Source: Pseudonocardia hierapolitana (GTDB taxonomy: Bacteria; Actinomycetota; Actinomycetes; Mycobacteriales; Pseudonocardiaceae). From it: 64,000 nucleotides of DNA. The notes under the pieces are model-generated. The model ran no database searches. It had not been told where the DNA came from and saw nothing but the letters and a program-made list of their open reading frames with translations. The stretch spans positions 3,100,001 to 3,164,000 of the forward strand of contig NZ_VIWU01000001.1 in assembly GCF_007994075.1 (NCBI RefSeq). Reading direction: 5' to 3'. The translations under genes were made by a program, and so were the position numbers. Of this stretch, positions 55,633-64,000 are shown one piece after another. Position 1 is the stretch's first letter. Each line of letters starts with the position of its first letter.

Positions 55633-56157
55633 ATGGCCACGTCATCCGCGGTGCGGCTCCCCGATGACCGCCGGGACGGGCGGCCCGTCCCCCGCTGGGC
55701 GGCCGTCGCCGCGCACCTCGTCCCGCTCACGACCCTGCCCTCCGGGCTCTGGCGCGTCCCGCTCGCACTCGGCTTCCCGATGGGGATCGTCGGCGTCCAC
55801 CTCGCGTGGTGGGAGCCCGCCTACTTCATCGGGCTCAGCCTGGTGACCGAGGGCGCAGCACTGCTGACGCTCGGCCTGGTGCGGCCGTGGGGCGAGCGCG
55901 TGCCGGCTTGGGTTCCGCTGCTCGGTGGCCGCCGCGTGCCGCCGCTCGCCGCCGTCGTGCCCGCCTCGATCGGGGCGGTGGTGGTGGCGCTGATCTGGGC
56001 GTTCGCGTTCCGCGACTTCCCGGAGCTCGGCGCGTTCCAGTTCACCCACCACGGCTGGAAGGTGCTCATGATCGCGTCCTACCTGCCGCTGCTGCTGTGG
56101 GCACCGCTGTTGGCGGCGGTCACCGTCGCCTACTACCGGCGGCGCTGCCAGGACTGA
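55633..56157 (+). CDS. Four-helix membrane protein, unknown function
   Basis: The 174-residue protein has about four hydrophobic segments (LWRVPLALGFPMGIVGVHL, FIGLSLVTEGAALLTLGLV, PPLAAVVPASIGAVVVALIWAFAF and a C-terminal IASYLPLLLWAPLLAAVTVAYY). PSGLWRVPLALG and the overall layout occur in actinobacterial membrane proteins without a known role. It overlaps the convergent LysR gene by 25 bases. A hairpin-rich stretch (55560-55600) lies upstream. Confidence 0.65.
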   Translation: MATSSAVRLPDDRRDGRPVPRWAAVAAHLVPLTTLPSGLWRVPLALGFPMGIVGVHLAWWEPAYFIGLSLVTEGAALLTLGLVRPWGERVPAWVPLLGGRRVPPLAAVVPASIGAVVVALIWAFAFRDFPELGAFQFTHHGWKVLMIASYLPLLLWAPLLAAVTVAYYRRRCQD

Positions 56158-57038
56158 CCCGGGAAGATCTCGGCGGCCACCGCCAGGAAGCCGCCGAGCA
56201 CCGGCGACTCGTCCCCGGGCCGCCAGGTCAGGGCCACGGGCACGCGGACGTCGGCGCCCGTGACCGGTCGGAAGGCGACGCCCTCGAACTGCAGCCACTC
56301 CGCCGACGCCGGAAGGAGCGCCACGCCCACGGCGGCGGCGACCAGAGCAACCACCGTGTAGGTGTCCTGTGCCTCCTGCACGACGCGCGGCCAGAAGCCG
56401 ACCTCGGCGCAGGCGCGCATCGCGGTGTCGCGCAAGTTGGAGCCCTGGCGGTCGGGATAGCTCACGAAGTTCTCCCCGGCCAGGTCGGCCAGCGGGACGG
56501 ACGGCCGGCCGGCGAGCGGGTGGTCGTCGGGGAGTACGGCGACGAGCTCCTCGTCCAGGACCGTGCGGCTGGCCAGCGGCCCGGGCACGGGTGCGCGAAG
56601 CAGGGCCACGTCTATGCTGCCGTCCAGCAGGCCGCCGATCTGCGCGCCGCTGAACACCGACGGGTGCAGCGACAGGCGGACGAGTGGGTAACGCGCCCGG
56701 TAGGCGCGGGTCATCCGGGGCAGCAGCCGCCACGTCGTCGCGCCGGTCAGGCCGACGCGGATCTCACCGCGCTCGCCCTGCTCGGTGAGCAGCACCGACT
56801 CCCGGGCACGGTCGGCCTCGGCGAGCACGCGGCGGGCGTGCTCGAGGAAGACGACGCCTGCGTTGGTGAGCCGGACCCGTCGGGTGGTGCGCTCGAGCAG
56901 CCGCACTCCCAGGTCGCGCTCCAGGTACTTGATCTGCTGCGACAGCGGCGGCTGGGCGATGTGCAGGCGCGCCGCGGCGCGCCCGAAGTGCAGCTCCTCG
57001 GCCACGGCGGCGAAGGCCCTCAGGTGCCGCAGCTCCAT
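56133..57038 (-). CDS. LysR family transcriptional regulator
   Basis: The 301-residue protein has the LysR HTH (MELRHLRAFAAVAEELHFGRAAARLHIAQPPLSQQIKYLERDLG) and a periplasmic-binding-like effector domain (IRVGLTGATTWRLLPRMTRAY, then FVSYPDRQGSNLRD). LysR proteins usually activate a divergent operon when they bind a pathway intermediate. Here the divergent operon encodes the TctABC importer and its CoA-transferase and ThDP enzymes, so it is the likely regulator. Confidence 0.92.
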   Translation of the reverse strand: MELRHLRAFAAVAEELHFGRAAARLHIAQPPLSQQIKYLERDLGVRLLERTTRRVRLTNAGVVFLEHARRVLAEADRARESVLLTEQGERGEIRVGLTGATTWRLLPRMTRAYRARYPLVRLSLHPSVFSGAQIGGLLDGSIDVALLRAPVPGPLASRTVLDEELVAVLPDDHPLAGRPSVPLADLAGENFVSYPDRQGSNLRDTAMRACAEVGFWPRVVQEAQDTYTVVALVAAAVGVALLPASAEWLQFEGVAFRPVTGADVRVPVALTWRPGDESPVLGGFLAVAAEIFPGQSWQRRR

Positions 57039-57113
57039 GGCCAGTATTGATACCGCATCCGTCTCAGTCGTGCCGCATCTTGTATTGGACTGGCCAACCC
57101 CGCACTGCATACG
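57039..57113. promoter_or_regulatory. LysR control region and promoter of the tct operon
   Basis: The divergent region has an inverted pair GGCCAGT (57039-57045) and ACTGGCC (57089-57095), and a direct repeat CCGCATC at 57053-57059 and 57073-57079, two helical turns apart. A promoter TTGGAC (57085-57090), N17, CATACG (57108-57113) points to tctB. The repeats lie just upstream of and over the -35 element, where LysR activators bind. Confidence 0.55.
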
Positions 57114-57152
57114 GTCGCTGATCAGACATCCGGCCTCAGGGAAGAGGTGCTG

Positions 57153-57602
57153 ATGGAGCAGTGGCGTGGGCAGCTGCACCGGATCGGTCCGCTGCTCGTC
57201 CTCGCCGTGGGCGTCGGCGCCGTCGGGCTCTCGCTCGGGTCGCTGACAGCGCCCGGCCCCGGCCTGTGGCCGTTCGTCGTGGCGCTGCTGCTCACCGGCA
57301 CGGGGCTCGTGCTCCTGGTGGTCGACGACCCGGAGGACTACGAACCGTTCACCCGCGGCTCGGCCCGGATCGCGGGCGGGCTCGGCGGGCTGGCCGTCTT
57401 CGTGGCGGCGTTCGAGGTGGTCGGGTTCCTGCTCCCGGCGTTCCTCATGCTCCTGCTGTGGCTGCGGGTGTTCGGCCGGGAGCCGTGGCGGTGGGCACTG
57501 GGCCTGGCGCTCGTCGGTTCCGTCGGGCTCTACCTGTTGTTCGACACCGCGCTCGGGGTCCGGTTCCCCGACGACGTGGTGGCCGAGCTGGTGGGCGGCT
57601 GA
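57153..57602 (+). CDS. tctB: Tripartite tricarboxylate transporter small permease TctB
   Basis: The 149-residue protein has four membrane helices and the TctB features PGPGLWPFVVALLLTGTGLVLL near the start and FGREPWRWALGLALVGSVGLYLLFDTALGVRFP at the end. It is the small membrane subunit that works with TctA. The ATG follows GAAGAGG at good distance. It is the first gene of the operon and ends one base before tctA. Confidence 0.92.
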   Translation: MEQWRGQLHRIGPLLVLAVGVGAVGLSLGSLTAPGPGLWPFVVALLLTGTGLVLLVVDDPEDYEPFTRGSARIAGGLGGLAVFVAAFEVVGFLLPAFLMLLLWLRVFGREPWRWALGLALVGSVGLYLLFDTALGVRFPDDVVAELVGG

Positions 57603-57603
57603 C

Positions 57604-59136
57604 ATGGGTGTCCTGGACGGGATCGCGCAGGGGTTCGCCGTCGCGCTGGACCCGGTGAACATCCTCTACGTCTTCCTCGGTGTGCTCATCGGCACGGTGA
57701 TCGGCGTGCTGCCGGGGCTCGGCCCGACCGCGACGATCGCGCTGCTGCTGCCGCTGACCTACGAGATCGAGCCGCACACGGCCGTGATCCTCCTGGCCGG
57801 GATCTACTACGGCTCGATGTACGGCGGCACGATCACGTCGGTGCTGCTGCGCCTCCCCGGCGAGGCCGCGTCGGTGGTCACCACGTTCGACGGCTACGAG
57901 ATGGCCAAGCAGGGCCGCGCCGGCCCCGCGCTGGGGATCGCGGCGATCGGGTCTTTCGTCGGGGGCGTGCTCGCCGTGATCGGGCTCGCGCTGCTCGCCC
58001 CGCCGCTGGCCGCGCTCGCCGTGTCGTTCGGCCCGCCGGAGTACGTGGCGATGACCGTGCTCGGCATCCTGCTCGTCACCTACCTCGGCACCGGCTCGGC
58101 CGTGAAGAGCCTCAGCATGGCGGCGCTGGGCCTGCTGCTCGCCACGGTCGGCCAGGACCCGATCGCCGGCACGACCCGGTTCACGTTCGGGCAGGTCGCG
58201 CTGTTCGACGGCCTCGACTTCGTGGCCGTCGCGATGGGGCTGTTCGGCGTCGGCGAGATCCTCCACAGCCTGGAGCGCACCGAGAAGGTCCAGGCCGTCA
58301 CGCAGAAGATCAAGAACATCTGGCCCAGCCGCGCGGACATGCGCGAGTCGGCGGGGGCCATCGGGCGCGGCAGCGTGCTCGGGTTCCTGATCGGTGTGCT
58401 GCCGGGGGGCGGTGGCGTGGTCTCATCGCTCGCCTCGTACGCGCTGGAGAAGCGGCGTGCCAAGGACCCGAGCCGGTTCGGCCGGGGCGCGATCCAGGGC
58501 GTCGCGGGGCCCGAGACGGCGAACAACGCCTCGTCGACCTCGGCGTTCATCCCGCTCCTGACGCTCGGCATCCCGGCCAACGTCGTGCTCGCGCTGATCT
58601 TCGGCGCGCTGCTCGTGCAGGGCGTGACGCCCGGCCCGCAGCTGATCGACCAGCACCCGGAGATCTTCTGGGGCGTGATCGCGTCGATGTTCGTCGGCAA
58701 CCTCATGCTGCTGGCGCTCAACATCCCGCTGGTCGGGGTGTTCGTGCAGATCCTGCGGGTGCGCGCCGGGATCCTCGCCGCGTTCGCCCTGCTCGTCACC
58801 ATGGCCGGGGTTTTCTCGATCAACAACGACGCCACCGACATGTGGGTGGTGCTCGCGTTCGGCCTGCTGGGCTGGCTGATGAAGAAGACGGGGTTCGAGC
58901 CCGGTCCGCTGGTGCTGGCGTTCGTGCTCGGGTCGATCCTCGAACGCGCGTTCCGCCAGTCGATGCTGATCTCCGGGGGCAACCTCGGCGTGTTCGTCAC
59001 CCGGCCGATCTCCGGCGGCCTGCTCGCCGCAACGGCCGTGATCGTCGTGATCAGCATCGTCACGGCCCGTCGCAGGGCCCGCGTGCTGCACCGCCACGAC
59101 ACCCCCGAACTCACACCCGCCGAGGGAGACCGATGA
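57604..59136 (+). CDS. tctA: Tripartite tricarboxylate transporter large permease TctA
   Basis: The 510-residue protein is highly hydrophobic and carries the TctA signatures GTVIGVLPGLGPTATIALLLPLTY, IYYGSMYGGTITSVLLRLPGEAASVVTTFDGYEM and GVAGPETANNASSTSAFIPLLTLGIPAN. It forms the ion-driven channel for carboxylates delivered by a TctC receptor. Two tctC genes in this operon could each serve it. It overlaps the first tctC by ATGA. Confidence 0.95.
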   Translation: MGVLDGIAQGFAVALDPVNILYVFLGVLIGTVIGVLPGLGPTATIALLLPLTYEIEPHTAVILLAGIYYGSMYGGTITSVLLRLPGEAASVVTTFDGYEMAKQGRAGPALGIAAIGSFVGGVLAVIGLALLAPPLAALAVSFGPPEYVAMTVLGILLVTYLGTGSAVKSLSMAALGLLLATVGQDPIAGTTRFTFGQVALFDGLDFVAVAMGLFGVGEILHSLERTEKVQAVTQKIKNIWPSRADMRESAGAIGRGSVLGFLIGVLPGGGGVVSSLASYALEKRRAKDPSRFGRGAIQGVAGPETANNASSTSAFIPLLTLGIPANVVLALIFGALLVQGVTPGPQLIDQHPEIFWGVIASMFVGNLMLLALNIPLVGVFVQILRVRAGILAAFALLVTMAGVFSINNDATDMWVVLAFGLLGWLMKKTGFEPGPLVLAFVLGSILERAFRQSMLISGGNLGVFVTRPISGGLLAATAVIVVISIVTARRRARVLHRHDTPELTPAEGDR

Positions 59137-60095
59137 AACGCCTGCTCGCCCTCACGCTCGCGGCCGCGCTGCTCTCCGCCGCGTGCGGCGGGCAACGCTC
59201 CGACGAGCCGGAGGCCTACCCCTCCGACCAGATCCGGCTGATCGTGCCGTACACGGCCGGCGGTCCCACCGACATCGCCGCACGCTCGCTCGGCAAGTAC
59301 ATGGAGACCTCGCTCGGCCAGACGGTCGTGGTGGAGAACCTTCCCGGCGCCTCGGGCTCGACGGCCTACCAGGAGCTGCTGTCCGCCGAGCCGGACGGCT
59401 ACACGCTGTCGATGTCCGCGCTGCCCACGGCCGTGCTCAACTACCTCACGAACGACGTCGGCTACACCCGCGACTCGTTCGCCCCGGTCGGGGTGATCAC
59501 CCAAGTGCCGTCGGCCCTCGTCGTGCCCGCCGCATCGCCGTACGCCGACCTGGCGGCGCTCTTCGCGGCCGCGCGCAGCGACCCCACGCTCGTCAGCGTC
59601 GGCACGCCGGGAGCGACCAACACGCACGCCGCGGAGACCCGCCGGATCACCCAGATCCACGGGGTACCGCTCACCGTCGTCCCGTTCAACGGCGCGCAGG
59701 AGGTGCTCGCGGCGCTACTGGGCGGCAACGTCGTCGCCGGGTTCGTGAACGCCTCGCAGGACATGCTGCCCGCCATCGAGTCCGGGCAGCTGCGGGTGCT
59801 GGCCGTCGGCACCGAGGAGCGGCTGCCGTACATCGACGCGCCCACCTTCGCCGAGCAGGGCTATCCGGAGATCACGCAGAGCACCACCACGTTCGGCGTG
59901 GTCGCCCCGGCCGGCACACCTCAACCGGTGATCGCGCGGCTCGAGGAGACCATGCGGGCGGCCTCGGCCGATCCGGAGACCCGGCGCGGGCTCGACGAGC
60001 GGTACGTGCCCGAGCAGTTCATGGGCAGCGCCGATCTCGCGGCGCTGTTCACCGAGACCGAGCAGACGTTCCAGGGGGTCGCAAGTGGTGGATGA
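59133..60095 (+). CDS. tctC: TctC-family solute receptor 1
   Basis: The 320-residue lipoprotein (LLSAACGGQ) is a Bug/TctC receptor: IRLIVPYTAGGPTDIAARSLGKYME, VVVENLPGASGSTAYQEL and VVPFNGAQEVLAALLGGNV. Receptors of this family bind carboxylates by the acid group outside the membrane. It is followed, with an 11-base overlap, by the ThDP enzyme gene. A second receptor, not obviously a recent copy, lies at 63019. Confidence 0.93.
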   Translation: MKRLLALTLAAALLSAACGGQRSDEPEAYPSDQIRLIVPYTAGGPTDIAARSLGKYMETSLGQTVVVENLPGASGSTAYQELLSAEPDGYTLSMSALPTAVLNYLTNDVGYTRDSFAPVGVITQVPSALVVPAASPYADLAALFAAARSDPTLVSVGTPGATNTHAAETRRITQIHGVPLTVVPFNGAQEVLAALLGGNVVAGFVNASQDMLPAIESGQLRVLAVGTEERLPYIDAPTFAEQGYPEITQSTTTFGVVAPAGTPQPVIARLEETMRAASADPETRRGLDERYVPEQFMGSADLAALFTETEQTFQGVASGG

Positions 60096-61725
60096 CGGGG
60101 CGGCGGACAACGGCGCAGGGGCGCTCGTCGACGCGCTGCGGGAGCTGGGCGTCGAGCTGGCGTTCGGGCTGCCGGGGGTGCACAACCTCGCGGTGTGGGA
60201 GGCGTGTGCCGAGGCCGGGATCCGGCTCGTCGGCGTGCGGCACGAGCAGGCCGCCGCCTACGCCGCCGACGGCTACGCGCGGGCCACCGGGCGGCTCGGC
60301 GTGGCGGTCGTGACCACCGGGCCGGGCGCGGCCAACACCCTGGGCGCCACCGGCGAGGCCATGACGTCGGGGGCACCGGTGCTGGTGATCGCCACCGACA
60401 TCCCGTCGACGCTGCGCCGGCCGGGCGTCTACCGCGGCGTGCTGCACGAGACGCGCGACCAGGCGGCCATGTTCGCCCCGGTGACGAAGGCGGCGACGAC
60501 CACCGCCGCGGCCGCCGACCTGTACGCCGACGTGCTGCGGGCGGGGCGGGAGGCGCTGCGAGCGCCCACCGGGCCCGTCTACCTCGGGGTGCCGACCGAC
60601 CTGCTGTCCGCCCCGGTCACCGAGCGCACGCCCGCGCCTGCCGGGCCCGCGGGGCTCCCGGAGCCGGACCTCGACGCCGCGATCGCGCTGATCGAGCGGG
60701 CCGAGCGCCCGCTGCTGTGGGTCGGCGGCGGGGCGGTGCGCGCCGGCGCAGGGGATGCCGTGGGCCTGCTGGCCGAACGGCTCGCCGCGCCGGTCGTCAC
60801 CACGTACCACGGGCGCGGGATCCTGCCGCCCGACCACCCCTGCCTCGCTCCGGCCCTCACCCACGTCCCGGCCATCGGGGCGCTGTGGGACGAGGCCGAC
60901 CTGGTGATCGCGATCGGCAGCGACCTGGACGGGATGACCACCCAGAACTGGCGGATGCCGCAGCCACCGGCGTTGCTGGCGATCAACGTCGACGCCGCGG
61001 ACGCCGCGAAGAACTACCGGCCCGACCACGTCCTGACCGGGGACGCCCGGGCCGTGACGGAACGGCTGGCCGCCGCGGTGCCGCAGCGGGACGGACTCGA
61101 CGTGCTGGCGGTGCAGACCGGGTCGATGCGCACGCACGTGACCACGCTCGTCCGCGAGGAGGAACCGCAGGCAGCGCTCCTGCTCGACACGTTCGACCGG
61201 CTGCTGCCCGCCGACGCCACGGTGCTCGCCGACATGTGCATCGCCGGCTACTGGGTGGCCGGTTTCCACCGGGTGCCCGCCCCACGGCGGCTGGCGTACC
61301 CGATGGGCTGGGGCACGCTCGGCTTCGCCTTCCCCGCCGCACTCGGCGCCGCTCTACGAGGGCGAGCGGTGGCCGTGGTCGGCGACGGCGGGTTCCTCTT
61401 CGCCTGCGGCGAGCTGGCCACCGCCGTGCAGGAAGCGCTGCCCGTCACGATCGTGCTCGTCGACGACGGCGGGTACGGCATGCTCCGCTTCGACCAGGTG
61501 CAGGCGGGCGTGCCCACCCGCGGCGTCGACCTGGTCACGCCCGACTTCGTGGCGCTCGCCGGAGCGTTCGGGGTGCCCGCGGAGGCCGTCGACGGCTTCG
61601 GCGACGCGTTCGAGGCAGCGCTCGCGAAGAGCCTCGCGACCGAGGGGCCGTCGCTGGTGGCGGTGCGGGCCGCGCTCACGCCCCCGCCGTCGACCTCGCC
61701 GCGGTGGTACCGGGCGGCTCGATGA
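60085..61725 (+). CDS. Thiamine-diphosphate-dependent enzyme (acetolactate synthase-like family)
   Basis: The 546-residue protein has the three domains of the ThDP decarboxylase/synthase family. The catalytic Glu that activates ThDP is Glu54 in VRHEQAAAYAADGYARATGR. The C-terminal ThDP motif begins GDGGF at about 433, but the usual Asn pair at its end is Asp-Asp (DDGGYG at about 460), which is unusual for acetolactate synthases. An FAD-type middle domain is possible but not clear. It lies between a carboxylate receptor and a CoA-transferase, so it probably decarboxylates or cleaves an imported 2-oxoacid or an acyl-CoA. The GTG start overlaps tctC by 11 bases. Confidence 0.87.
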   Translation: MVDDGAADNGAGALVDALRELGVELAFGLPGVHNLAVWEACAEAGIRLVGVRHEQAAAYAADGYARATGRLGVAVVTTGPGAANTLGATGEAMTSGAPVLVIATDIPSTLRRPGVYRGVLHETRDQAAMFAPVTKAATTTAAAADLYADVLRAGREALRAPTGPVYLGVPTDLLSAPVTERTPAPAGPAGLPEPDLDAAIALIERAERPLLWVGGGAVRAGAGDAVGLLAERLAAPVVTTYHGRGILPPDHPCLAPALTHVPAIGALWDEADLVIAIGSDLDGMTTQNWRMPQPPALLAINVDAADAAKNYRPDHVLTGDARAVTERLAAAVPQRDGLDVLAVQTGSMRTHVTTLVREEEPQAALLLDTFDRLLPADATVLADMCIAGYWVAGFHRVPAPRRLAYPMGWGTLGFAFPAALGAALRGRAVAVVGDGGFLFACGELATAVQEALPVTIVLVDDGGYGMLRFDQVQAGVPTRGVDLVTPDFVALAGAFGVPAEAVDGFGDAFEAALAKSLATEGPSLVAVRAALTPPPSTSPRWYRAAR

Positions 61726-62381
61726 TCGACAAGCGAGCGAAGTCGCTCGGCGAGGCCGTCGCCGGGGTGAAGGACGGCGACACCGTGCTGGTCGGCGGGT
61801 TCGGCAACTCCGGCGTGCCGGTCGAGCTGGTGCACGCGCTGCTGGAGCTGGGCACGCGCGACCTCACGGTCGTCACCAACAACGCGGGCAGCGGCGAGAC
61901 CGACATCGCCGCGCTGATCCGCGAGCGCCGGGTCCGCAAGATCGTCTGCTCGTACCCGCGGTCGGCGGGGTCGGTGTGGTTCGAGAAGTTGTGGCGGGCC
62001 GGCGAGATCGAGCTGGAGCTGGTGCCGCAGGGAACGCTCAGCGAACGGATGCGCGCCGCGGGCGCCGGGCTCGGCGGCTTCTTCACGCCGACCGGGGCGG
62101 ACACCCCGCTCGCGGACGGCAAGGAGGTGCGCGTGATCGGCGGACGCAGGCACGTCTTCGAGGAACCGCTGCACGCGGACGTCGCGCTGATCAAGGCCGA
62201 GCGCGCCGACCGCTGGGGCAACCTCGTCTACCACTCCGCGGCCCGCAACTTCGGGCCCGTGATGGCCACCGCGGCGAAGCTGACGGTGGCGCAGGTGCGT
62301 ACGTTCGTCGAGCTCGGGGAACTCGACCCGGAGGCGGTCGTGACGCCGGGGATCTTCGTCGACCGGGTGGTGCGGGCATGA
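61722..62381 (+). CDS. Class I CoA-transferase, alpha subunit
   Basis: The 219-residue protein is the A subunit of the 3-oxoacid CoA-transferase family: GDTVLVGGFGNSGVPVELVHALLELG is the CoA-binding glycine loop, and GGFFTPTGADTPLADGKEVRVIGGRRHVFEEPL is typical of the PcaI/ScoA group. It forms an active enzyme only with the B subunit, encoded next with an ATGA overlap. It moves CoA between carboxylic acids. The acid used here is not apparent. Confidence 0.93.
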   Translation: MIDKRAKSLGEAVAGVKDGDTVLVGGFGNSGVPVELVHALLELGTRDLTVVTNNAGSGETDIAALIRERRVRKIVCSYPRSAGSVWFEKLWRAGEIELELVPQGTLSERMRAAGAGLGGFFTPTGADTPLADGKEVRVIGGRRHVFEEPLHADVALIKAERADRWGNLVYHSAARNFGPVMATAAKLTVAQVRTFVELGELDPEAVVTPGIFVDRVVRA

Positions 62382-63022
62382 ACCTCACCGCGCGGCGGAT
62401 GGCCGCCCGGGTGGCGCAGGACATCCCGGACGGCTCCTACGTCAACCTCGGGATCGGGCTGCCCACGCTCGTGGCCGACGTGGTGCCGCCGGGCCGGGAG
62501 ATCATCTACCACAGCGAGAACGGCATCCTCGGGATGGGACCGGCACCCGAGCCCGGCACCGGGGACCCGGAACTGATCAACGCGGGCAAGCAGCTGGTGA
62601 CGCTGGTGCCCGGCGGCGCGTACTTCCACCACACCGACGCGTTCGTGATGATGCGCGGCGGCCACATCGACATCACGGTGCTCGGCGCGTTCCAGGTGGC
62701 GGCGAACGGCGACCTCGCCAACTGGGCCACCGACGACGCCACGCTGCCACCCGCCGTCGGCGGCGCGATGGACCTCGCGGTGGGGGCACGCCAGGTGTTC
62801 GTACTGACCACGCACACCACCAAGGACGGCAAGCCCAAGCTCCTGCCCACCTGCACCTACCCGCTCACCGCTGCGGCCGTGGTGGACCGGGTCTACACCG
62901 ACCTCGCCGTGCTCGACGTGACACCGGAGGGGTTCGTCGTCCGGGAGATGGTCCCCGGTCTCAGCCGCGACGAGCTGCAGGCGCGGACCGGCGCCCCGCT
63001 GCGTTTCGGGGACGGGTCATGA
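62378..63022 (+). CDS. Class I CoA-transferase, beta subunit
   Basis: The 214-residue B subunit starts MNLTARRMAARVAQDIPDGSYVNLGIGLPTLVAD and has the catalytic glutamate, which forms the acyl-CoA thioester, in YHSENGILGMG (Glu47). Later GGHIDITVLGAFQVAANGDLANW and VFVLTTHTTKDGKPKLLPTCTYPLT are family signatures. It completes the heteromeric enzyme with the A subunit. The gene ends with an ATGA overlap with the second receptor gene. Confidence 0.95.
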   Translation: MNLTARRMAARVAQDIPDGSYVNLGIGLPTLVADVVPPGREIIYHSENGILGMGPAPEPGTGDPELINAGKQLVTLVPGGAYFHHTDAFVMMRGGHIDITVLGAFQVAANGDLANWATDDATLPPAVGGAMDLAVGARQVFVLTTHTTKDGKPKLLPTCTYPLTAAAVVDRVYTDLAVLDVTPEGFVVREMVPGLSRDELQARTGAPLRFGDGS

Positions 63023-63984
63023 GGTTCATCGGGCTCCTCGCCGGGCTCACCCTGCTGGCCGGGTGCGGCGGCGGGCCGGCACCCGCCGAGGACGCGCCGC
63101 AGTTCCCGACCGAGGAGATCCGGTTGCTCGTGCCGTACGCCGCGGGCGGGCCCACCGACCTCACCGCGCGGGCGTACGGCGAGTTCCTCGAACGCGACCT
63201 CGGCCGGCCGGTCGTGGTGGAGAACCTGCCCGGCGGCTCGGGCGCGCTCGCGACGCAGGAGCTCGTGCAGGCCGAGCCCGACGGGCACACGCTCGCGCTG
63301 ATCACCGCAGGCACCACCGTGCTGACGCCGCTGGTGAACGACGTGGGCTACACCGCAGCCGACGTCACACCGGTCGGGGTGCTCTCCGAGGTCCCGTCGC
63401 TGCTCGCGGTCGCGGCGGACTCGCCGTACCCGGACATCGCGGCGTTCGTCGCGGACGCGCGGGCCCGGCCGGCCGCGATCACCGTGGGCGTGCCCGGGGC
63501 GTCCACGCCGCAGGGCGTGGAGCTGCAGCGGCTGCGCGCCGAGCACGGCGTCGAGGTGACCGCCGTCCCGTTCAACGGCAACGCCGAGATGACCACCGCG
63601 CTGCTCGGGCGCAACGTCGACGCCGTGCTGATCAACGCGTCGCAGGACGTCACCGCGAACATCGACGCAGGCGAGTTCCGGCCGCTCGCCGTCTCCACCG
63701 AGCAGCGGCTCGGCTGGCTGCCGGACACGCCGACGCTGGTCGAGGCCGGCTTCCCGGGCCTGACGCTCTCGGGCTCGACGTTCGGGCTCGCCGGGCCGGC
63801 CGGGCTACCCGAACCCGTCGTGACCCGGCTCGAGGACGCCCTGCGCCGAGGGCACGCCGACCCGGCGGTCGTCGCGGCGGTCGGCGAACGCTATCTGGGG
63901 ACGCAGTTCCGCGGGGCCGCCGAGATGCGCGCGGTCCTCGACCAGACACAGGCCGTCTACGAGCCGATCCTGGGAGGGTCCTGA
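63019..63984 (+). CDS. TctC-family solute receptor 2
   Basis: The 321-residue lipoprotein (LLAGCGGG) is a second TctC/Bug receptor with IRLLVPYAAGGPTDLTARAYGEFLE, VVVENLPGGSGALATQEL and VTAVPFNGNAEMTTALLGRNV. It differs from receptor 1 at many positions, so it probably recognises a different or related carboxylate. Placement after the catabolic genes instead of beside tctA suggests later recruitment. It is translationally coupled to the CoA-transferase B gene and to the next gene. Confidence 0.92.
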   Translation: MRFIGLLAGLTLLAGCGGGPAPAEDAPQFPTEEIRLLVPYAAGGPTDLTARAYGEFLERDLGRPVVVENLPGGSGALATQELVQAEPDGHTLALITAGTTVLTPLVNDVGYTAADVTPVGVLSEVPSLLAVAADSPYPDIAAFVADARARPAAITVGVPGASTPQGVELQRLRAEHGVEVTAVPFNGNAEMTTALLGRNVDAVLINASQDVTANIDAGEFRPLAVSTEQRLGWLPDTPTLVEAGFPGLTLSGSTFGLAGPAGLPEPVVTRLEDALRRGHADPAVVAAVGERYLGTQFRGAAEMRAVLDQTQAVYEPILGGS

Positions 63985-64000
63985 TGAGACGAACGTGGGC
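63984..64000 (+). CDS. Start of a further gene of the tct operon, cut by the window edge
   Basis: An ATG overlaps the stop of receptor 2 (TGATG) and opens MRRTW before the sequence ends. The coupling shows that the operon continues. Nothing can be said of the product. Confidence 0.5.

Follow-up and report, generated by a model that had tools for sequence, protein, structure and literature searches.

What does a bacterium gain from an operon in which the genes of a carboxylate importer enclose a thiamine diphosphate (ThDP)-dependent enzyme and a coenzyme A (CoA)-transferase? The question is raised by a stretch of 64,000 nucleotides from Pseudonocardia hierapolitana (contig NZ_VIWU01000001.1, positions 3,100,001 to 3,164,000; hereafter the window), where such an operon starts at position 57147 and extends beyond the last base. 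The host is a soil actinobacterium whose genome is a single contig of 8.86 Mb. In this work, the operon was confirmed as a real, conserved unit. As to its function, we tentatively propose from the gene content that it may serve the uptake and catabolism of an external organic acid via ThDP-dependent decarboxylation of a 2-oxo diacid, followed by CoA activation. Induction would probably proceed through the LysR-type regulator encoded next to it.

Layout and conservation of the operon

The gene order is tctB-tctA-tctC1-ThDP-ctfA-ctfB-tctC2-tctC3-SDR (the last encoding a short-chain dehydrogenase/reductase), with the structural genes all intact and on one strand, and the divergent LysR gene is separated from tctB by 108 bp. 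The gap between tctB and tctA is one base, and overlaps of 1–11 bases occur at all seven junctions from tctA through SDR. The original prediction had described a single overlapping unit of tctB, tctA, tctC, a ThDP gene, CoA-transferase A and B and a second tctC facing a LysR gene, and all of these genes are present and intact. The "further gene" that it placed after the second tctC proved, on reading beyond base 64000, to be a third tctC, which is followed by SDR; these final two genes extend 1.7 kb beyond the window end. The next plus-strand open reading frame, about 130 bp after SDR (L010:1871), was left out of the unit.

Conservation of the gene order was checked in the best 80 of 277 loci with a relative of the ThDP enzyme (the named loci), and the counts cover the fetched DNA around each, which is short in some. 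In 15 of the 80 (L061–L063, L065, L066, L068–L075, L079 and L114), tctC1 lies upstream and ctfA/ctfB downstream of the ThDP gene. These tct-positive loci belong to Pseudonocardia and to the Geodermatophilaceae (Geodermatophilus, Modestobacter and Blastococcus) and form one clade with the window, whose closest named relatives in the tree of the ThDP protein are Pseudonocardia species. The tctA and tctB genes are also present in 14 of the 15 and a LysR ortholog in 13; none was seen in L069, and L063 starts at a contig edge near tctC1. The SDR gene is shifted by about 5 kb in L062, and the tct-positive loci of Geodermatophilaceae yielded no SDR ortholog and have an additional tctC beyond LysR. 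The same arrangement in members of two actinobacterial families is more than chance would produce. The gene order anticipated in the original prediction is thus conserved, and of the two findings named beforehand as fatal to it, namely a clear acetolactate synthase and an unconserved order, neither was obtained.

The LysR-type regulator (56133..57038, minus strand) matches PF00126 (HTH_1) with 84 bits and PF03466 (LysR_substrate) with 151 bits; all genes that follow are on the plus strand. The tctB gene (57147..57602; PF07331, 72.9 bits) encodes the small and tctA (57604..59136; PF01970, 517.8 bits) the large membrane subunit of a tripartite tricarboxylate transporter. The substrate-binding lipoprotein TctC1 (59133..60095; PF03401, 154.6 bits) carries in its N-terminus the residues LSAAC, which we take to be the lipobox. 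The second and third substrate-binding proteins are encoded by tctC2 (63019..63984; PF03401, 151.5 bits) and tctC3 (63984..64958 in window-equivalent coordinates, to L010:958, with 63984..64000 inside the window; PF03401, 170.3 bits, scanned from L010:23), and the SDR gene (adh_short_C2) occupies the window-equivalent positions 64951..65742, past the window. A Pfam scan of the operon returned TctB, TctA, three TctC, three TPP domains, two CoA_trans and adh_short_C2, all above gathering scores, and with TctA, TctB and TctC all present the importer belongs by Pfam to the tripartite tricarboxylate transporters. Uptake of carboxylates is established for TctABC. One tctAB pair stands beside three tctC genes (59133–60095, 63019–64000 onward), and the pairwise identity among the three TctC proteins is 48–55%.

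Identity of the ThDP enzyme and the CoA-transferase

The ThDP-dependent enzyme (60085..61725; PF02776, PF00205 and PF02775), a proposed 2-oxo-acid and possibly 2-oxo diacid decarboxylase, forms its own clade. Among the best 25 of 53 NCBIfam models, none was matched above its own cut-off. The best was PRK07524 (guanidino-oxopentanoate decarboxylase) with 351.7 bits against a cut-off of 500, so that the enzyme is not assigned to AruI, followed by PRK08266 (351.5, cut-off 571) and PRK07064 (342.4, cut-off 495), for both of which the function is unstated; the acetolactate synthase models start at 281.5 bits and fall. A quick tree of 74 rows, with a warning of long branches for the reference sequences, placed E. 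coli IlvI with the window genome's own paralog L162, E. coli Gcl with its own paralog L163, and the AruI-like protein with L161, L154 and L155. The operon clade stands apart from those of IlvI, Gcl and Oxc and shares an unresolved fork with the AruI-like group. Several candidates were rejected on these grounds: acetolactate synthase (TIGR00118, 256.3 bits against 538.35; best such model PRK08322, 281.5 against 509; IlvI elsewhere in the tree), oxalyl-CoA decarboxylase (E. coli Oxc apart on a long branch, 26% identity; no Oxc model among the best 25 of 53), glyoxylate carboligase (E. coli Gcl grouping with L163 and not with the ThDP protein) and sulfoacetaldehyde acetyltransferase Xsc (TIGR03457, 171.2 against 676.4 bits). 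Profile scores and tree thus agree with the earlier suggestion that the enzyme lies outside the acetolactate synthases. The window genome holds 14 ThDP-family matches, of which only the operon protein is the ortholog, the next best being at 38%.

In the alignment, E54, the GDG at 433–435, H33 and H121 are common to the 20 rows of the operon clade, and the position 28 residues past GDG is Asp (D461), not Asn. The AlphaFold model has a mean pLDDT of 78.2, with low values at 283–288, 387–389 and 391–411; its active site is too weak, and therefore substrate residues could not be placed. Foldseek with this model returned the general ThDP fold only; acetolactate synthases and benzaldehyde lyase/formolase come closest among solved sequences and folds. 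By family, 2-oxo-acid decarboxylation is most likely the chemistry of this enzyme. One stop codon lies within the ThDP homolog match in each of G027, G362 and G369.

The CoA-transferase is of class I, as had been predicted: subunit A, encoded by ctfA (61722..62381), scores 331.7 bits with TIGR02429 (cut-off 128.5), and subunit B, encoded by ctfB (62378..63022), 289.5 bits with TIGR02428 (cut-off 243.55). The SENG motif of CtfB presumably has a catalytic role. In a tree of A and B, which held no ScoAB reference pair, CtfAB clusters with pairs from proteobacterial plasmids, among them two of Roseomonas and one of Sphingobium beside pcaF (61–62% identity; pcaF linkage by annotation), and apart from both the window genome's other pair (50% identical) and E. 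coli AtoDA (43%). Among solved chains, a ScoA comes nearest to CtfA, and CtfB shares 48% identity with a plasmid protein of Rhodococcus that bears the name succinyl-CoA:3-ketoacid CoA-transferase. Among the plasmid relatives of CtfB, of which 6 of 572 records were read for context, the closest is that of Tistrella (68%). The Tistrella pair (L209:847-8636) lies 2.2 kb from a DUF1338-annotated gene, with an L-piperidine-6-carboxylate dehydrogenase (797.8 bits, cut-off 730) nearby, both on the opposite strand; as a single case, this is only suggestive. An aminotransferase is also found near this pair. The best 120 of 8000 CtfA homologs carry automatic names, with Pseudonocardia, Geodermatophilaceae or an Actinomycetota metagenome-assembled genome as named hosts, and are uninformative.

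The proposed route and its alternatives

We hypothesize that TctABC with its three binding proteins would import an external organic acid, and that the ThDP enzyme would yield a semialdehyde by decarboxylating a 2-oxo acid, which is probably a diacid. The semialdehyde could then be oxidised by a dehydrogenase encoded elsewhere or reduced by the SDR, which might alternatively serve a side branch, and the resulting acid would be activated by CtfAB with a CoA donor such as succinyl-CoA. Both the substrate and the order of steps are inferred. In contrast to the oxalate route, decarboxylation is taken to precede CoA transfer, given that an aldehyde dehydrogenase (ALDH) and a CoA-transferase accompany the enzyme in several relatives. 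The leading guess is the conversion of 2-oxoadipate via glutarate semialdehyde and glutarate to glutaryl-CoA, with 2-oxoadipate favoured because some relatives in the ThDP clade sit in lysine/2-aminoadipate clusters.

These clusters were read around orthologs at about 54–59% identity in two families of the same order as the window (f6 and f10). L-lysine 6-transaminase (LAT) and ALDH genes lie beside the ThDP ortholog in all nine regions read (L141–L147, L196 and L197), with a CaiB-type (class III) CoA-transferase in 7 and an acyl-CoA dehydrogenase in 6; LAT, ALDH and CaiB are also neighbours in G667, which shares only the phylum (ThDP protein 61%). Three of these LAT proteins were scanned and scored 685–721 bits (cut-off 520.8). 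Among genomes with a ThDP match, LAT is present in 15 of 17 in f10 and in the one of f6; in 10 of these 16 the two genes share a contig and are never more than about 6 kb apart, and the remaining 6 have them on separate contigs. By arithmetic, random placement in a genome of 3.5 Mb would bring LAT to within 6 kb of the ThDP gene in about 0.3% of cases; because the genomes are related, the weight lies in the persistence of the linkage, not in this figure. On the tree, the LAT state needs just two changes. In the f45 genomes G553 and G647, a LAT-like gene and an ALDH gene adjoin a ThDP homolog at 41–42%. In G667, G553 and G647 LAT was detected by tblastn only (64–68% to the f6 LAT), and the proteins of G667 and G553 match Pfam Aminotran_3.

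Two further lineages show related settings: in Solirubrobacteraceae (L088), the ThDP gene stands between DAO and an L-piperidine-6-carboxylate dehydrogenase (781 bits, cut-off 730), and in Umezawaea (L110) it is accompanied, beyond a LysR gene, by ALDH (69% identical to the f6 ALDH), DAO, CaiB and acyl-CoA dehydrogenase. The best model for the CaiB-type neighbours in the four lineages scanned was succinate--glutarate CoA-transferase, in all cases below cut-off. The window genome has 15 CaiB-type matches at E up to 1e-40, none above that cut-off, and therefore CaiB neighbours alone are weak evidence. A LAT gene (695 bits) and an ALDH gene (71% identical to the f6 ALDH) are adjacent in the window genome at 296771-299652 (in L182). 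In L125 and L135, the ThDP ortholog is followed by cupin regulator-, D-serine dehydratase-, acetamidase- and class IV aminotransferase-like genes (Pfam on L125 only).

In the window lineage, the ThDP enzyme appears to have been joined with an importer and a CoA-transferase of class I, the counterpart in some relatives being of class III. A wider proposal, which we regard as rather doubtful, is that the whole clade consists of non-oxidative 2-oxoadipate decarboxylases in an actinobacterial route from L-lysine via 2-aminoadipate, 2-oxoadipate, glutarate semialdehyde and glutarate to glutaryl-CoA, which would have been rebuilt in Pseudonocardia and Geodermatophilaceae as a scavenging operon with TctABC and the class I transferase.

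A number of observations weigh against the proposed uptake and decarboxylation route with 2-oxoadipate as its leading substrate. The operon itself contains no aldehyde dehydrogenase, and the LAT/ALDH pair of the window genome is 2.86 Mb away. LAT is found in none of the 80 named loci, the window's nearer relatives, within the fetched DNA, and in 0 of 23 f16 and 2 of 40 f1 genomes with a ThDP match (some f16 matches being paralogs); it occurs in no sampled Geodermatophilaceae genome and therefore cannot supply the substrate there. The ALDH beside LAT falls under every equivalog cut-off. In the f45 homologs beside LAT (L194:8797-10497 and L195:9041-10693), the catalytic Glu (E54) is missing and the cofactor motif is incomplete, so that these proteins may be inactive. 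The analysis identified no residue of the ThDP protein that would bind a distal carboxylate, and the docked lysines K386 and K471 of the cyanobacterial decarboxylase KGD, in the accessible part of the source, have no counterpart by spacing only (PMC10418658). The 2-oxoglutarate dehydrogenase could also take 2-oxoadipate, which is a substrate of the human complex; the accessible part of the source does not state the same for the actinobacterial enzyme (PMC10415282). Finally, the ThDP gene occurs without tct or ctf in four loci of the operon clade, two of Pseudonocardia and two of Geodermatophilus (L080, L064, L067 and L076).

The absence of LAT near the ThDP gene in the named loci and from the sampled f16 genomes also favours the same scheme of import, decarboxylation and CoA transfer for another 2-oxo acid, such as 2-oxoglutarate or one with a branched or aromatic side chain, so that only distant relatives would have the link to lysine; we consider this possible, with some doubt. 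It would agree with the Asp of cyanobacterial KGD (Asp462), which in the accessible part of the source stands at the same spacing past GDG as D461 (PMC10418658), and with 26 of the 80 named loci, all Amycolatopsis (L078, L083 and 24 others), in which HyuA and HyuB follow the ThDP gene instead, 21 of them with DAO upstream. That HyuA/HyuB hydrolyse 6-oxopipecolate to 2-aminoadipate is a guess. What speaks for the lysine link is that LAT or L-piperidine-6-carboxylate dehydrogenase are the sole pathway-specific neighbours that recur across deep lineages.

An acyloin-forming carboligase, with the SDR reducing or oxidising the acyloin and CtfAB and Tct serving a separate acid, is suggested by the nearest solved structures named above and by L064 and L080, where ThDP and SDR are adjacent without ctf (L064 has just 1.7 kb of upstream sequence). 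It is improbable, given that PRK07524 (351.7 bits) and two further models outrank the best acetolactate synthase model (281.5), none over cut-off, and that several relatives pair the enzyme with ALDH. More improbable still are two unrelated functions under one promoter, in which a Tct/CoA-transferase uptake module was set around an older ThDP gene with no common pathway. The ThDP gene indeed persists while tct and ctf come and go: in L067 and L076 the outer flanking genes are the same as in tct-positive Geodermatophilus, the other 61 named loci (mostly Amycolatopsis and Prauserella) have no tct or ctf within the fetched DNA, and the tct state changes at least five times on the tree, which may be read as one gain and four losses. 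Moreover, in L213 a related CoA-transferase pair lies beside a TRAP carboxylate importer without ThDP. Against this stand the overlapping genes and a ThDP gene held between tctC1 and ctfA in 15 of the 80 loci of two families.

Comparison with known systems

The combined import, decarboxylation and CoA-transfer route may be undescribed, as originally suggested, since literature searches found no description of the combination. In the open-licence PMC literature, nothing relevant was found on a Tct, ThDP and CoA-transferase cluster and no paper joining a 2-oxoadipate decarboxylase with lysine; the one paper matching ketoadipate decarboxylase concerns 3-oxoadipate. The operon is thus made of known parts in a combination without a description found, and the lysine-linked part of the ThDP clade is the more interesting result. 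The linkage gives a testable candidate for 2-oxoadipate handling in lysine-transaminase bacteria without HglS. Binding tests could likewise reveal what the Tct importer of the operon carries. Relatives of the ThDP enzyme are annotated, for example, as "thiamine pyrophosphate-binding protein" or "acetolactate synthase-1/2/3 large subunit".

In Pseudomonas putida, the DUF1338 protein HglS is, by the accessible part of the source, an iron oxygenase of lysine breakdown that converts 2-oxoadipate to 2-hydroxyglutarate with loss of CO2 (PMC7286885). Removal of CO2 from 2-oxoadipate would be common to both routes; HglS was not found in the window genome or in any of 15 LAT-positive genomes (of 17 searched; LAT by profile in 12, the other three being the tblastn cases), and the sole match among the 17 is partial, in G344, without a LAT match. 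In the oxalate route the CoA-transferase and ThDP genes are likewise adjacent (E. coli frc and oxc), but the transferase is of class III there and class I here, and the ThDP protein lies outside the Oxc branch. The oxalate analogy, with CoA transfer before ThDP-dependent decarboxylation of the thioester, fails because the enzyme is not Oxc by profile score and tree (26% identity; best profile a 2-oxo-acid decarboxylase, below cut-off). The original interpretation thus holds for the conserved operon, the class I transferase and an enzyme other than acetolactate synthase, and not for the oxalate-type order of steps.

The proposed non-oxidative ThDP-dependent decarboxylation of a 2-oxo diacid resembles that of cyanobacterial KGD, with which the enzyme shares, in the accessible part of the source, the cofactor-site Glu and GDG followed by Asp 28 residues on (D462 in KGD, D461 here). 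It differs from KGD in that the residues docked to 2-oxoglutarate or ThDP (H385, K386 and K471) are unmatched, by spacing only and without alignment, and in its gene setting (PMC10418658). AruI (5-guanidino-2-oxopentanoate decarboxylase) is the top NCBIfam match and shares PGxH, RHEQ and one fork of the tree with the enzyme, but the score is below cut-off, the clade is separate, and AruI has Asn where Asp461 stands here. Unlike PcaIJ, the 3-oxoadipate CoA-transferase, CtfAB has no pcaF beside it in the window operon, although it is 61–62% identical to three pcaF-linked pairs and shares the SENG motif.

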